From Rickettsia typhi (GTDB lineage Bacteria; Pseudomonadota; Alphaproteobacteria; Rickettsiales; Rickettsiaceae): 16,728 nt of DNA. How positions within the stretch are numbered: the stretch's first letter is position 1; each line of letters starts with the position of its first letter. The DNA lies in contig CAMCTQ010000013.1 of assembly GCA_945878545.1 (NCBI GenBank), positions 1-16,728 of the forward strand, given 5' to 3'. Of this stretch, positions 6,260 to 12,919 are shown piece after piece. The position numbers and the translations under genes were made by a program. The notes under the pieces were generated by a model. The model ran no database searches, had not been told where the DNA came from, and saw nothing but the letters and a program-made list of their open reading frames with translations.

Positions 6260-7081
6260 ATGGAAAACATAGATAATCAGTTAGATAATATAGGTCTAAG
6301 CAATGATACGAATCCTGTAGCTGTGCTTAGTTTTTACAGTTTTGTAAATCTTCCTGAACTAGAAATTTTACTACCTAAAATCTTATTAATATCTAAAAAG
6401 AAGTATATAAGAGGTACTATAATTATTGCTCATGAAGGTTTTAATGGGTCTATTTCTGGAAAAGAAGATAACCTACATTTAGTTATTGAGGAATTAAGAA
6501 GTCTTACCAATCCAAAAGATATTAATATAAAAGTAAATTATTGTAGCACGCAACCATTTTCCAAAATCAAAGTAAAGATAAAAAATGAGATCGTTTCAAT
6601 GAAATCTGGAGAAATCGATGTAGAGAACTTAAAAGGTAACTATATTGAGACAACTGACTGGGATCAATTTATAAAAGGAAGTGATGTAGTAGTTGTAGAT
6701 ACAAGGAATAGCTACGAAGTAAAAGTAGGAAGTTTTCAGAAAGCTATAGATCCGCATACCGAGACTTTTAGGGAATTCCCTGAATGGGCTGAAAAAAATT
6801 CAGAGTTATTTAAAAATAAGAAAATAGCTATGTTCTGTACTGGCGGAATAAGATGTGAAAAATCTACAGCTTATATGAAAACACTTGGTTATGAGCAAGT
6901 GTTTCATCTCAGAGGTGGAATCTTACAATATCTTGAGGATACCAAAAACAAAAATGGTGCATGGACAGGAGATTGTTTTGTTTTTGATGACAGAGGCGCA
7001 GTTGATTCTGATTTATCACCTAGTGAGGGATACTGGGTTCAGAAAGGACAAACTGCCAAGAGTGTTAGCATAAATAAATGA
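6260..7081 (+). CDS. trhO: TrhO, rhodanese-domain tRNA uridine(34) hydroxylase (UPF0176)
   Basis: This 273-residue protein has an N-terminal acylphosphatase-like part typical of TrhO/YceA ([20 protein letters not shown], then [16 protein letters not shown] at about 52-67) and a rhodanese domain (about 125-235). The signature [15 protein letters not shown] includes C193 and C199, and [11 protein letters not shown] and [11 protein letters not shown] are both present. A C-terminal Cys-containing tail ([13 protein letters not shown]) follows. TrhO hydroxylates U34 of several tRNAs on the way to 5-methoxyuridine-type wobble modifications. It starts 18 bases after degP, and its stop overlaps the start of the next gene (ATGA at 7078-7081), so the two are likely translationally coupled. 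The N-terminus carries a short Asn-rich extension; a start further in is possible. The family is certain; the hydroxylase role is known from homologues. Confidence 0.93.
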
Positions 7082-7707
7082 TGTCGATCAATTCTAGTCT
7101 GGTCAAAAAAATAGTCATAGTTACTAAGAGTAACCTGCTAGCTGATTCAATAAAATGTAATTTACCAAATATTGATTTTTTGTTTATTAGTAATAATTTA
7201 CAAAAGTCTATTGATTCCCACAGCAAAATTGATTTACTAATAATAGATTTTGACTGCCAAAAACCAGAAGCTATCCAGCAATATAAGATTAAAACCATTG
7301 TAACCATAACAAATGGAAATAAATTTTTAAAAGATGAAATAAAAATTTCAAAACCATTTAAGTTGAATAGTTTGCTAAAAATAATAGAAGGCACAAATAA
7401 TAGTAAAGATATTTTTTGTGTAATTAATGATGATTTTATTTACAATGAAAGATTACGCACATTAAATTCACAAGAAAAATTGATCAAGTTAACAGAAAAA
7501 GAAAATGATATTTTCAAATTTATGTTACTCAGCCCAGATTACAAAATTAAAAAAGAATCGCTTTTAAAAAACATTTGGAAATATCATGAAAATAGCGAGT
7601 CTTCTACGGTAGATACTCATCTTTACAAACTTAAAATAAAACTTCCCGATGAAATGCTACAATTAAGAAATAATATCTGCCAATTAAATATAAAAACACT
7701 AATGTAA
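7078..7707 (+). CDS. OmpR/PhoB-like regulator with degenerate receiver
   Basis: This 209-residue protein has a receiver-like N-terminal domain (about 9-105) and a winged-helix C-terminal domain (about 130-205). The receiver keeps [15 protein letters not shown], a strand ending in Asp (LLIIDFD, D57 or D59) and SKPF (K92-P93). The paired acidic residues after strand 1 are replaced by TKS, so phosphorylation is doubtful. The effector domain shows the trans_reg_C pattern: [40 protein letters not shown], then [12 protein letters not shown]. No histidine kinase is adjacent. Its start overlaps the trhO stop by 4 bases, implying coupled translation. It ends 28 bases before a strong bidirectional terminator. 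It may be a phosphorylation-independent regulator, but its targets cannot be read from the sequence. Confidence 0.78.
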
Positions 7708-7846: not shown

Positions 7847-8638
7847 TTAATCGTTGGGGATTTCTGTTATCAATTCACCTTGTATAGCAACTAAGTTGTC
7901 TATATCTTGTTCAACCAATAAATGACGGATACTTGGGCAAGATAATGTACTGGCATCAACAATTTCATCATGTAGCAATCTGTCTAAAGTCATCAACAAT
8001 GCTGAATCACTTTTTATTATGTCTTCTTCTTCCGAATTGCCTCCTCTAAGTAGGTTTTTCACAAAATTATCATCAAATTCATGAAGTTTAGGATCAGCAA
8101 GAGGTGCTAGTACTTCTTGGACTTGTTGTGATTCTTCCTGCAAAAAACTAAATTTAGGAGTGATGTACGCATCAAAAATAGCAAGCGTCGTTTGCCCTCC
8201 CTTACCATATGGTACCTCTAACATATCTAGTCCATGGCTTGCAAGATCTGCTATAGACGTCAAAACAGCTTTTAGACAGTTATTCTGCTCGGCAATATAG
8301 GTTAACATTACTCTACCGTGAACGTTTAGTGCTAAATAACTATTTCTTAACCCTTCTATATCGCCATTGCTATAAAACTCCATAGACTCCAGGGCTTGAG
8401 TAAATTGGGAAAATCTAGCCGTCTTATCTGGATTGCAAAACCCATTTCCCCATTCTAGTTCGATTGATGGAGTTTCACCAAGTGGATTCATGATACCAGG
8501 GCATCCTGCTTGCGCTCTAGCATGAATAAACGGAACATTATATTTTGTAGCTAACTCCACAGTTTTTGATCCACTGCTACTTGCAGCAACAAAATCTTGT
8601 GCTATAGATTTTTCAAGACCTCTTAAAAAAAATTTCAT
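7847..8638 (-). CDS. hypothetical protein, possibly degenerate ankyrin-like
   Basis: I do not recognise this 263-residue protein with confidence. It has no signal peptide and no membrane segment. Parts resemble degenerate ankyrin repeats: GRVMLTYIAEQNNCLKAVLT, followed by DLASHGLDMLEV and then GKGGQTTLAIFDAYITPKF, and earlier NPLGETPSIELEWGNGF. The C-terminal third is acidic and rich in Leu, Asp and Ser. An ankyrin-type fold would make it a candidate host-directed protein, since such repeats are common in intracellular bacteria, but this is speculative. The start is well supported: AGGAGG lies about 8 bases before the ATG at 8638, one of the best ribosome sites in the window. Codon use looks less AT-rich than that of its neighbours. 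It follows the GNAT gene by 46 bases on the same strand and ends before the 7735-7769 terminator. Confidence 0.7.
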   Translation of the reverse strand: MKFFLRGLEKSIAQDFVAASSSGSKTVELATKYNVPFIHARAQAGCPGIMNPLGETPSIELEWGNGFCNPDKTARFSQFTQALESMEFYSNGDIEGLRNSYLALNVHGRVMLTYIAEQNNCLKAVLTSIADLASHGLDMLEVPYGKGGQTTLAIFDAYITPKFSFLQEESQQVQEVLAPLADPKLHEFDDNFVKNLLRGGNSEEEDIIKSDSALLMTLDRLLHDEIVDASTLSCPSIRHLLVEQDIDNLVAIQGELITEIPND

Positions 8639-10460: not shown

Positions 10461-11303
10461 ATGAATTTTAAACCCGGGCTTTACATAGTGTCAACTCCAA
10501 TTGGCAACTTAAATGACATTACCATTCGTGCAATCGAGACTTTAAAGAATTCTGATATTATTTTTTGTGAAGATACCAGAGTATCGGGAAAATTACTAGC
10601 GAAACATCATATCATTACTCCTCTTTCTGTATATAATGATAAAAGTGATGAGGCAACACGTAAATACGTAATAAAAAACATAGAGTCTGGAAAAGTTGTT
10701 TCTTTAATCTCTGATGCCGGAACTCCATTAATTTCAGATCCTGGGTATAAATTAGTTAGAGAATTAAAAGAAAAAGGCTATTTTATTGATATAATACCAG
10801 GAGTTTCAGCTCCCATTGCGGCATTAACTATTTCAGGATTACCATCTGATCGATTTATATTCGCCGGATTTCTACCTAAGACAAATATAGGAAGAGAGCA
10901 AGTTTTTGCAGAATTCATAGACTTTGATGCCACGCTTATCTTTTTTGACAGTCCTGTAAGAATTGTATCTTCATTAGAAGCGGCACTAAAAATCTTAGGA
11001 AATCGCCAAGCTAACGTTTCTAGAGAGTTAACCAAATTATTTCAAGATTCTAAAACAGGTAATTTATCAAGTTTAATAGAATATTATAAGAAGAATTTAC
11101 CAAGAGGAGAAATAGTATTGTTAATTTCTGGTAAGAAATTAATTGATATATCTCCAGAAAAAATAGCCACAGAAATTAAAGATTTACTTATTTCAGGTGA
11201 GCGTGCAAAGGATATCACCGAAAAACTGTCTCAAAAATACCATAAATACTGTAGTAAAAGTGAAATTTATAAAATTTGTAATTCTTTAAAGATAAAAAAA
11301 TAA
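10461..11303 (+). CDS. rsmI: RsmI, 16S rRNA C1402 2'-O-methyltransferase
   Basis: This 280-residue protein is a tetrapyrrole-methylase-fold enzyme with all the RsmI marks: YIVSTPIGNLNDITIRAIE (8-26), FCEDTR (35-40), VVSLISDAGTPLISDPGY (79-96), IIPGVSAPIAALTISGLPSD (111-130) and FAGFLP (134-139). It uses S-adenosylmethionine to 2'-O-methylate C1402 in the decoding centre of 16S rRNA. Length matches the family (about 280-290). Its start lies 37 bases from the divergent lppC start, so the two share a very short promoter region. No strong Shine-Dalgarno sequence is visible. It ends 73 bases before the first of three small secreted-protein genes on the same strand. Confidence 0.95.
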   Translation: MNFKPGLYIVSTPIGNLNDITIRAIETLKNSDIIFCEDTRVSGKLLAKHHIITPLSVYNDKSDEATRKYVIKNIESGKVVSLISDAGTPLISDPGYKLVRELKEKGYFIDIIPGVSAPIAALTISGLPSDRFIFAGFLPKTNIGREQVFAEFIDFDATLIFFDSPVRIVSSLEAALKILGNRQANVSRELTKLFQDSKTGNLSSLIEYYKKNLPRGEIVLLISGKKLIDISPEKIATEIKDLLISGERAKDITEKLSQKYHKYCSKSEIYKICNSLKIKK

Positions 11304-11376
11304 AAAATCTAGTTTATTTCTTTGAGAAAAATGTTAGAGTGTGTGCACCAAGTTAATTTATTTAAGGAGTTTAAAA

Positions 11377-11574
11377 ATGTTAAGATTATTTGTTATTTTA
11401 GTTAGTGTATTCGCTTTTTCAAAAGTTGCTTTTGCAGCTGACGCTGACATGAATAAAAAACCTGCTACTGAAGTTACTAAAGATGCTGCTGATAAAGACA
11501 GCATGAAAGACAAAATGGACGACAAAATGGCTGAAAAAATGGACGACAAAGCTGAAGGAAACAAAGCTAAATAA
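11377..11574 (+). CDS. small secreted protein, tandem paralogue 1 (Met/Asp/Lys tail)
   Basis: This 65-residue protein has a clear Sec signal peptide (MLRLFVILVSVFAFSKVAFA, cut after residue 20). The mature peptide is very polar, with no cysteine or histidine. Its C-terminal half places methionines at residues 43, 47, 51 and 55 (MKDKMDDKMAEKMDDK), a strict i,i+4 spacing that would line one face of a helix. The start is fixed by AAGGAG (11364-11369), 7 bases before the ATG; an upstream in-frame start would spoil the signal peptide. It is the first of three consecutive genes sharing signal peptide and ribosome site but not the tail. The function is unknown; a periplasmic metal- or membrane-interacting peptide is possible. 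It is more diverged from the other two than they are from each other. Confidence 0.75.
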   Translation: MLRLFVILVSVFAFSKVAFAADADMNKKPATEVTKDAADKDSMKDKMDDKMAEKMDDKAEGNKAK

Positions 11575-11636
11575 TAATTGTTTAATTAGTAACCAATTAA
11601 TATAAAGTCTATTTTTTTAAGTTGAAGGAGTTTAGT

Positions 11637-11879
11637 ATGTTAAAGAAACTAGTAGTCTTGCTTAGTATTCTTGCTTTTGCAAAAGTTGCTTTTGCTGCTG
11701 GTGCTGATAGCACGAGCAAAAAACCAGAGCATGAAGTTGTGAAGGGAAAAGAGCATGAGCATCACGAGAAGAACGGAAAGCATAAAAAGCATAAGAATAA
11801 GCATGAGAAGCATGAAAAACATGAAGAGAAAAAACATGAGAAACATGAAGAACATGAACATAGTAAAGAAGCTAAATAA
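11637..11879 (+). CDS. small secreted protein, tandem paralogue 2 (His/Glu/Lys-rich)
   Basis: This 80-residue protein begins with the signal peptide MLKKLVVLLSILAFAKVAFA (cut after residue 20), almost identical to that of paralogue 3. The mature part holds 13 histidines in 60 residues, mostly as KHEKHE-like steps at about 50-75, together with many Glu and Lys and no hydrophobic core. Such sequences are expected to be disordered and to bind Ni, Zn or Cu ions, but binding is inferred. The start is set by GAAGGAG (11624-11630), 6 bases before the ATG. The internal repeats suggest expansion by slippage. It lies 62 bases after paralogue 1 and 64 before paralogue 3. I recognise no named family. Confidence 0.75.
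   Translation: MLKKLVVLLSILAFAKVAFAAGADSTSKKPEHEVVKGKEHEHHEKNGKHKKHKNKHEKHEKHEEKKHEKHEEHEHSKEAK
11775..11868 (+). repeat. AAGCATGA-type short tandem repeats encoding (K)HE steps
   Basis: The coding stretch is built of imperfect 9-12-base units such as GAGAAGCATGAAAAACATGA, giving the KHEKHEKHEE pattern. The units differ at synonymous and non-synonymous positions, so the array is old or degrading. It is a likely site of length variation between strains. Confidence 0.6.
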
Positions 11880-11910
11880 ATTGATGTTATTTAGCAATTA
11901 AGTAGCATCA

Positions 11911-11930
11911 ATAAATAAAGATTTATTTAT
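11911..11930 (+). promoter_or_regulatory. perfect hairpin directly before the ribosome site of paralogue 3
   Basis: ATAAATAAA (11911-11919) pairs perfectly with TTTATTTAT (11922-11930) across a 2-base gap. The AAGGAG ribosome site starts at the very next base (11931). In the mRNA this would place a 9-base A-U stem against the Shine-Dalgarno sequence. It may stabilise the 5' end or affect ribosome access. All pairs are A-U, so chance formation in this AT-rich gap cannot be excluded. Confidence 0.4.
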
Positions 11931-11943
11931 AAGGAGTTCTAAT

Positions 11944-12153
11944 ATGTTGAAAAAACTAATAGTGTTGCTTAGCGTTCTTGCTTTCGCAAAACTTGCCTTT
12001 GCATCGTCCGCGGCTATTTCTGTGCCGGTTGAAAAGCATGGAAAAAGCCATGACGATCATGGGAAAAACAACGAAGATCACGGAAAAAGTCATGACGATC
12101 ATGGAAAAAGCCATGATAACCATGGAAAAGCTGGGAAACCGGCTGCTCAATAA
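11944..12153 (+). CDS. small secreted protein, tandem paralogue 3 (HGKSHDD heptad repeats)
   Basis: This 69-residue protein has the signal peptide MLKKLIVLLSVLAFAKLAFA (cut after residue 20), a near copy of that of paralogue 2. The mature part has a short Ala/Ser/Val lead and then a seven-residue repeat starting HGK at residues 32, 39, 46, 53 and 60 (consensus HGKSHDD), ending in GKPAAQ. It has eight histidines and many Asp residues, fitting a disordered metal-binding or calcium-like acidic repeat; the ligand is unknown. The start is fixed by AAGGAG (11931-11936), 7 bases before the ATG. It is the last of the three paralogues, with rpmI following on the same strand. I recognise no named family. 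Confidence 0.75.
   Translation: MLKKLIVLLSVLAFAKLAFASSAAISVPVEKHGKSHDDHGKNNEDHGKSHDDHGKSHDNHGKAGKPAAQ
12037..12141 (+). repeat. 21-base coding minisatellite, about five units
   Basis: Units begin with CATGG or CACGG at 12037, 12058, 12079, 12100 and 12121. Units 1, 3 and 4 are nearly identical; unit 2 is diverged (AACAACGAAGAT) and unit 5 is degenerate. Because 21 is a multiple of three, gain or loss of a unit keeps the reading frame and changes the number of HGKSHDD repeats. Confidence 0.85.
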
Positions 12154-12241: not shown

Positions 12242-12319
12242 GACTCGCAGCAACGTGGCCCTGGTATGCCTAATTTGCTGTTTGTTTATTTTTTAAATGC
12301 CAAATTAAGAGACATGAAT

Positions 12320-12526
12320 ATGCCTAAAATGAAAACCCATTCGGGTGCAAAAAAACGCTTTAAGCTTACTGCAACAGGTAAAGTAAAAGCTGGTCAAGCT
12401 GGTAAGCAGCACTTTATGAGACGTCGTACAAAAGCTCAACTTCGTAACCAAAGAGGGACGGCAGTTCTTTGCGATCAAGATGCAAAAAGATTGGTAAAGA
12501 TATTCCTTCCAAATGGAACTAATTAA
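12320..12526 (+). CDS. rpmI: 50S ribosomal protein bL35
   Basis: This 68-residue basic protein has the classic bL35 sequence [20 protein letters not shown], then [20 protein letters not shown] and a C-terminal tail ending in FLPNGTN. It is a structural protein of the large ribosomal subunit. The start at 12320 is chosen because AAGAGA (12307-12312) lies 7 bases before it and bL35 begins MPKMK; ATGs at 12314 and 12266 are in frame but would add non-conserved residues. rplT follows 18 bases later. infC, the usual upstream neighbour, is absent; the three secreted-protein genes stand in its place. Confidence 0.96.
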
Positions 12527-12544: not shown

Positions 12545-12919
12545 ATGACACGTGCAAAAGCAGGAAAAGTATCCAAAAATCGTCACAAAAAAATAATCAA
12601 ACTTGCCAAAGGTTATAGAGGCAGAGCAAAAAATTGTTTTAGAATAGCTATTGAAAAAGTAGAGAAAGCACTGCAGTATGCTTATAGAGATCGTAGAAAT
12701 CGCAAGCGTGACTTTAGAGGTCTATGGATTCAAAGGATCAATGCAGCGGTTAGAGAACATGGTATGATTTATTCTACCTTTATTAACGGACTCTTGAAAG
12801 CTGGTATTGCTATTGATCGCAAGATGCTAGCAGAGCTTGCTGTAAATAACGCCGATAGTTTTGCTCATATCGTAGAGCAAGCTAAAAAAGGGTTATCTGT
12901 AAAAAAACAAATAGACTGA
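12545..12919 (+). CDS. rplT: 50S ribosomal protein bL20
   Basis: This 124-residue protein matches bL20: the basic N-terminal helix with [20 protein letters not shown], then [20 protein letters not shown] and [20 protein letters not shown], and the C-terminal [20 protein letters not shown]. It binds 23S rRNA early in large-subunit assembly. In enterobacteria bL20 represses its own operon through a leader upstream of rpmI. A leader of about 70 bases exists here, but I could not find the pseudoknot by eye. GAGAG before the ATG is a modest ribosome site. It is cotranscribed with rpmI. Confidence 0.97.

Follow-up and report, generated by a model that had tools for sequence, protein, structure and literature searches.

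In a 16,728-nucleotide stretch of DNA (the window), which by its sequence is from a 'Ca. Megaira'-like member of the Rickettsiaceae, three adjacent genes for small exported peptides (ORF1, ORF2 and ORF3) lie between rsmI and rpmI. Their signal peptides are homologous, a similar signal peptide is kept across the family, and the mature part appears to be a replaceable, mostly charge-balanced tail of low complexity. We give about even chances to the reading that the trio are Sec-exported, disordered peptides of the periplasm, ORF1 acting as a stabiliser like Asr or LEA proteins and ORF2 and ORF3 as a metal sponge. The set is real, conserved and unnamed; it is more than ordinary, since across the family the tail varies independently of the signal peptide, and less than a new mechanism. 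Soluble residence in the periplasm and disorder are what we infer, as is function, for which the composition, export and likely disorder of the tails speak.

Three exported-peptide genes between rsmI and rpmI

The positions and sizes of the genes (Table 1) agree with a preliminary description of this DNA, which had reported a trio of adjacent ORFs, and so does the strong AAGGAG ribosome site common to all three, found 6-7 nt 5' of each ATG. The encoded peptides end in Lys in ORF1 and ORF2 and in Gln in ORF3. None of the three matches a Pfam or NCBIfam model above the curated cut-off, and no Rfam match in the window reaches the gathering threshold. Between 11200 and 12350, promoter-like sites are at shuffle level (4 vs 4.1 in shuffles) and the two terminator-like hits are on the minus strand within the ORF3 repeats.

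Table 1 Features of the peptide genes and their flanks in the window.
Feature	Position	Strand	Remarks
rsmI (16S rRNA methyltransferase), left flank	10461..11303	+	TIGR00096, 219.9 bits, cut-off 167.9
AAGGAG ribosome site of ORF1	11364..11369	+	equivalents 5' of ORF2 and ORF3
ORF1	11377..11574	+	65 codons; signal peptide (codons 1-20), 45-residue Lys/Asp/Glu tail, no His, net charge -2
ORF1 signal peptide, codons 1-20	11377..11436	+	MLRLFVILVSVFAFSKVAFA
ORF1 mature residues 1-17	11437..11487	+	homologous to ORF2 mature residues 1-18 (11697-11750)
ORF2	11637..11879	+	80 codons; signal peptide, 60-residue tail, 13 His, net charge +2 (His uncounted)
ORF2 signal peptide, codons 1-20	11637..11696	+	
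ORF3	11944..12153	+	69 codons; signal peptide, 49-residue tail, 8 His in HGKSHDD-type repeats, net charge -1
ORF3 signal peptide, codons 1-20	11944..12003	+	
rpmI (L35), right flank	12320..12526	+	TIGR00001 above cut-off
rplT, next after rpmI	12545-12919		TIGR01032 above cut-off

The 20-residue signal peptides are closely similar, as had been proposed. Pairs 1/2, 1/3 and 2/3 share 12, 11 and 17 of 20 residues and score 62, 59 and 83, compared with maxima of 44, 47 and 52 among 5000 core-shuffled sequences; no shuffle (0/5000) reaches any of the observed scores. The best match to the four other exported or membrane-protein N-termini of the window scores 31, below every score within the trio. 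The putative cleavage site is after AFA. The signal-peptide codons of ORF1 have a low synonymous divergence (pS 0.07-0.21, vs 0.37-0.59 over the whole of rsmI), and only 0-2 of the 258-260 20-codon windows of rsmI have a pS as low. An RNA-level element in these codons was considered and dropped, because low values are common at gene starts elsewhere and the ORF1 value is therefore not special: the first 20 codons have a pS of 0.09-0.18 in lppC, 0.15-0.30 in rplT, 0.22-0.44 in rsmI and 0.15-0.50 in rpmI.

Conservation at the locus in Megaira-type genomes

The rsmI gene of the window is 83% identical to that of the closest locus, L001, and 79% identical to those of L002 and L003, the last of which is on the complete chromosome of 'Candidatus Megaira endosymbiont of Mesostigma viride'. 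Between rsmI and rpmI, L001, L002, L003 and G026 each have an ORF1 homologue and one His-rich ORF, and all four Megaira-type genomes (G001, G002, G003 and G026) carry this pair at the locus; absence from close relatives, which had been set beforehand as the outcome that would speak against the genes, did not occur. In three other Rickettsiaceae with both flanks present (L004, L006 and L019), no such ORF was found among plus-strand ATG ORFs of at least 40 residues.

The window has two His-rich ORFs, compared with one in each Megaira-type relative. By sequence, the counterpart of ORF2 is L001 ORF2, and the best match of ORF3 by position and by an HGKSHD-like motif is the His-rich ORF of L002 and L003. 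In L002, the gap that separates the two ORFs (L002:5105-5340) resembles the start of ORF2 (0/500 shuffles) and is perhaps a decayed third copy, of ORF2. The gap of L003 bears no significant likeness to the ORF2 start (67/500 shuffles), and no remnant of ORF3 was found in L001 (330 and 299 of 500 shuffles). Because a decayed ORF2 is suggested in L002 only and the comparisons in L003 and L001 are insignificant, the sequences do no more than suggest a three-gene ancestor at this locus.

Two side observations concern these loci. In G026 (L100:4651-5565), a gene for an IS1595 transposase (NF033547, 199.3 bits, cut-off 75) stands between the ORF1 and His-rich homologues, both of which have open frames. 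L019 comes from a metagenome-assembled genome titled Rickettsia typhi; its rsmI is only 57% identical to that of the window, the locus groups with other Rickettsiaceae loci, and the label may be wrong.

Similarity, repeats and rates of change in the mature parts

The mature parts had been called unrelated, which holds over their full length, where similarity stays within the level of composition (157, 1438 and 195 of 2000 shuffles reach the observed values), and for ORF3, whose mature start matches neither ORF1 nor ORF2 (2204 and 3298 of 5000 shuffles are as good). It does not hold for the beginnings of the ORF1 and ORF2 tails, which are homologous over 17-18 residues; this KKPxxEVxK region aligns far above shuffles both in the window (0/5000) and in L001 (0/5000).

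All three tails contain tandem repeats, of 12 nt in ORF1, of 9, 12 and 33 nt in ORF2 and of 21 nt in ORF3, where 4.4 copies encode the HGKSHDD heptads. The helix with Met at i,i+4 that had been described for ORF1 has to be qualified: the run sits inside the 12-nt repeat and is unconserved, the corresponding stretch having one Met in L001, two unspaced in L002 and none in L003. AlphaFold returned a pLDDT of 61 and a pTM of 0.22 for ORF1 and modelled part of the tail, at low confidence, as a helix, so that full disorder of this tail is not certain.

For the more distant orthologue pairs the mature parts have a pN/pS of 0.40-0.61, compared with 0.19-0.29 for rsmI, and in the close pair L002/L003 the values are 0.76 for ORF1, 0.26 for the His-rich ORF and 0.15 for rsmI; the figures for the mature parts are rough, since they rest on alignments of low-complexity tails. 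Judged from these alignments the mature parts are fast-evolving yet constrained. The earlier proposal of a locally duplicated, fast-evolving, exported set is upheld, and export and selection of the peptides are well supported at the sequence level.

Similar signal peptides with different tails in the Rickettsiaceae

Searches covered 85 genomes from the family and 343 from the order, and the hits were then read. At least 46 of the 85 family genomes encode a small exported protein whose signal peptide is similar, a lower bound because only proteins that were both found and read are counted. Behind this signal peptide are short charged tails in 23 genomes, DUF2673-type tails in 22 (20 confirmed with Pfam; G050 and G062 assigned by reading) and an Ala-rich tail in one (G024); named entries link the types to 'Ca. 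Tisiphia', Rickettsia endosymbionts and 'Ca. Trichorickettsia mobilis'. A Megaira-only profile reaches the Tisiphia-type peptides at E-values of 1.1e-5 to 2.9e-4 per genome; those of profile A6 are not independent, because A6 already contained these other types. Homology of the signal peptide between Megaira and the other genera thus has moderate support from sequence comparison.

Outside Megaira and Trichorickettsia the peptide gene often has the same neighbours. In G072 (Tisiphia-type), genes for an MsbA-like ABC exporter, the peptide, a Bcr/CflA-like MFS protein and lolC/E follow one another on one strand; lolC/E is above its NCBIfam cut-off, and the ABC and MFS proteins match the MsbA and Bcr/CflA models below theirs. 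An ABC gene adjoins the peptide in four of the six charged-tail regions examined for these neighbours (non-Megaira, non-Trichorickettsia). Among the 22 DUF2673-type regions, ABC or MFS/lolC genes adjoin the peptide in 21, on both sides in 16, and the G024 peptide, whose Ala-rich, helical tail ends in Lys, is beside an ABC gene. Similar signal peptides thus precede unlike mature parts at a single locus. The Megaira trio is away from this ABC-exporter/MFS locus, as is the pair of Trichorickettsia, where G084 and G085 have a tandem of their own with one His-rich and one non-His peptide.

DUF2673 (PF10880, Rickettsia) resembles the charged-tail peptides in its signal peptide and, at the ABC-exporter/MFS locus, has the position that a charged-tail peptide takes in Tisiphia-type genomes; it differs in its tail, of which 14-22% are charged residues in four members. 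Matches to the model start at residue 1 and so span the signal peptide, which means that the conserved DUF2673 tail is confined to Rickettsia-type genomes. ORF1-3 have no match to it in Pfam at E<=1 (cut-off 20 bits), and 20 Rickettsia-type proteins do match.

A profile built from nine sequences retrieved 97 proteins at E<=1 among 990 candidates. Most of the 97 homologues keep the signal peptide and have a tail that is either ORF1-type or His-rich. Three of them (P0016, P0019 and P0021) join a signal peptide of the ORF1 type to an ORF2-type tail. Their sequences suggest that copies recombined at the signal-peptide repeat, or, less probably, an assembly error; the longest contigs are 603, 24033 and 30785 bases. 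Frame-breaking changes in other strains, which had been named as evidence against the genes, do exist, but they are few: four of the 97 homologues are frame-shifted or tail-less (P0085, P0092, P0093 and P0096). P0085 and P0093 are frame-shifted homologues of both genes whose longest contigs have the same length (66238), and may reflect one assembly with both genes broken, or long-read errors. Further tails were noted behind Tisiphia-type or similar signal peptides in P0108, P0111, P0110, L140 and L179; they are Met-rich (P0108 and P0111, 8 Met each), Glu/Lys/Val helical, or Ala-rich and coiled-coil-like.

Composition of the tails

The tail set comprised 124 sequences, 15 of 124 database proteins being left out and 15 sequences from the window and genomes added; for half-tails and net charge the same 15 of 124 were left out and 14 were added. 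Of the 15, four belong to a different family, three are frame-shifted, three are recombinants, two are truncated at the N terminus, and the remaining three are a fused protein, a tail-less one and one with an odd end. His content was taken from 112 sequences, with 12 of the 124 left out (the 15 minus the recombinants).

Among 27 representatives below 50% identity, charged residues make up 46% of the tail on average, and the standard deviation of the net charge is 1.60, compared with 4.45 when signs are random (lower-tail p 2e-6, a statistic that only partly removes the relatedness of the sequences). Balance is present within each half-tail, and the two halves show a weak anticorrelation (r -0.38, p 0.02; r -0.40, p 0.04), so the charge balance is partly a matter of local repeat structure. 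Cys and aromatic residues number 0 in 1164 residues of the 27 representatives and 1 in 2106 residues of 50 representatives below 80% identity. Lys is the C-terminal residue in 22 of the 27 and 44 of the 50, and accounts for 19% of residues elsewhere. His content is bimodal: 72 of the 112 tails have 0-5.7%, 40 have 14-23% and none lies between. Among the 23 genomes with charged tails, the His class occurs only in the four Megaira-type and two Trichorickettsia genomes. ORF1-3 share the features of the Rickettsiaceae charged-tail set (a signal peptide, then a near-neutral, charged tail of 33-61 residues with hardly any Cys or aromatics), and ORF1 and ORF2, not ORF3, also have its C-terminal Lys.

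Function and alternative explanations

In the reading that we put first, ORF1 would be a generic stabiliser of the periplasm of the Asr/LEA kind, and ORF2 and ORF3 would take up and release a transition metal (Zn, Ni or Cu) through their clustered His. A charged C terminus is expected to help unfolded proteins escape tail-specific proteases. An S41-family protease is above cut-off in 21 of 21 genomes (barely in G001), which fits this kind of protection, and the C-terminal Lys would probably shield the unfolded tails in this way.

Metal buffering, raised in the preliminary description for the whole trio, is plausible for ORF2 and ORF3 because His content is bimodal, and unsupported for ORF1 because its Met run is unconserved. 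No metal gene tracks the His class: in 19 genomes ZnuA (18/19), cation efflux (19/19) and NicO (0/19) do not discriminate, and the ZnuA proteins of 11 genomes have His-rich stretches without a clear difference between carriers and non-carriers. A Pfam scan of nine of the window's ORFs turned up no recognisable metal gene next to the trio.

All three peptides could instead resemble Asr as disordered chaperones or proton buffers of the periplasm, with His tails that titrate at about pH 6-7 and become cationic on acidification, and with no part for metals; we consider this somewhat unlikely. Asr (NF033636) is the top NCBIfam match of ORF1 (20.4 bits), and a Tisiphia-type peptide also matches it (19.7); like the trio it is small, exported and of low complexity, and excerpts of PMC10746267 describe E. 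coli Asr as an intrinsically disordered periplasmic chaperone. The tails keep a near-zero net charge, and an Asr study cited in those excerpts has net charge in its title. However, both scores fall far short of the 50-bit cut-off and may be due to composition, ORF2 and ORF3 have no Asr match at E<=0.1, and the NCBIfam model describes a repetitive basic protein, in contrast to the near-neutral tails of the trio. ORF1-3 are thus not assigned to Asr. Moreover, no genomes but the Megaira-type and Trichorickettsia ones were found to have the His class, and acid exposure should reach others too.

That the tails are filler or near-neutral relics, grown by repeat slippage and of little function behind a signal peptide kept because it is already optimised, seems improbable to us. 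Tandem repeats in each of the three tails, the four frame-broken or tail-less homologues and the possible decayed copy in L002 are what such an origin would leave, but the frames stay open despite reduced genomes, pN/pS is below 1, His content is bimodal and Cys and aromatics are absent. Slightly less credible still is action on, or recognition by, the host as secreted or surface peptides, with tail turnover as an arms race: the tails do change fast and are exchanged, yet pN/pS is below 1 in every orthologue comparison, composition is kept where sequence is not, and the changes are mostly in repeat length and neutral to composition. Peptidoglycan tethers like Braun lipoprotein, their C-terminal Lys joined by L,D-transpeptidases, would suit the excess of Lys at the tail ends and the Lys-ended helical tail of G024 but are highly improbable, since YkuD (PF03734) is above cut-off in one of 21 genomes (the window's own not among them), with no match in Megaira-type or Trichorickettsia genomes, ORF1-3 have no Cys and so no lipobox, and ORF3 ends in Gln.

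Comparison with known metal-binding proteins

SilE, the periplasmic silver sponge that the proposed role of ORF2 and ORF3 resembles, is likewise an exported disordered protein, in which His and Met motifs bind metal according to excerpts of PMC5008109; binding by the trio is predicted only, and the conserved class in the trio has His with Lys and Glu in place of His/Met motifs. Its context also differs: the trio is flanked by rsmI and rpmI-rplT, and no sil genes were recognised among the ORFs of the window. Hpn and Hpn-2 of Helicobacter pylori are small paralogous His-rich proteins as well, which excerpts of PMC4671568 place in the cytoplasm, whereas ORF1-3 all start like signal peptides; this sets the trio apart from proteins that lack one. 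The His-rich stretch of ZrgA (NF047873, zinc uptake) matches ORF2 and ORF3 weakly (19.1 and 17.5 bits, cut-off 185). One source labels P0007 and P0022 as RcnB, an exported protein whose label suggests metals; no RcnB model is among the Pfam matches of ORF1-3 at E<=1, and the label is probably an effect of composition.

Possible selection on bulk chemistry

A broader interpretation, which we offer tentatively, is that of an exported-peptide cassette in which only the signal peptide is conserved and tails are swapped wholesale, selection acting on the bulk chemistry of the periplasm and not on sequence. Tails would be exchanged when neighbouring copies recombine at the signal-peptide repeat, when one form replaces another at an orthologous locus, or through repeat expansion. 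The chemistry selected would be neutral, highly charged and unfolded, with a His load present or absent, and the His class would be a switch at the level of lineages, so far in the Megaira-type and Trichorickettsia only.

If this is right, selection for composition maintains tiny disordered periplasmic peptides in obligate intracellular bacteria whose genomes are reduced; ordinary homology searches would miss such genes, signal peptide and position being the only guides to orthology; and DUF2673, which has no assigned function in Rickettsia, would gain a positional relationship to unrelated-looking peptides. In the open-licence literature we found no paper on DUF2673 in Rickettsia, and nothing on these genes among His-rich, hypervariable or conserved-signal-peptide sets. 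The terms low complexity, secreted, signal peptide and histidine have no hit in PMC10132079, on Megaira genomes. A dual RNA-seq of Megaera polyxenophila in Paramecium is reported in PMC13134042, whose excerpts leave trio-type genes unmentioned.

Other features of the window

On the minus strand at 7847-8638 the window has an ORF of 263 residues without a Pfam match at E<=1. At 7078-7707 it encodes a 209-residue protein with a terminal Trans_reg_C DNA-binding domain, for which no receiver domain was matched in Pfam. Finally, the segment at 12247-12281, 5' of rpmI, is near-invariant across the four Megaira-type loci and forms a CAGCAA/TTGCTG hairpin (consensus -12.8 kcal/mol, without compensatory change), perhaps a ribosomal-protein leader.
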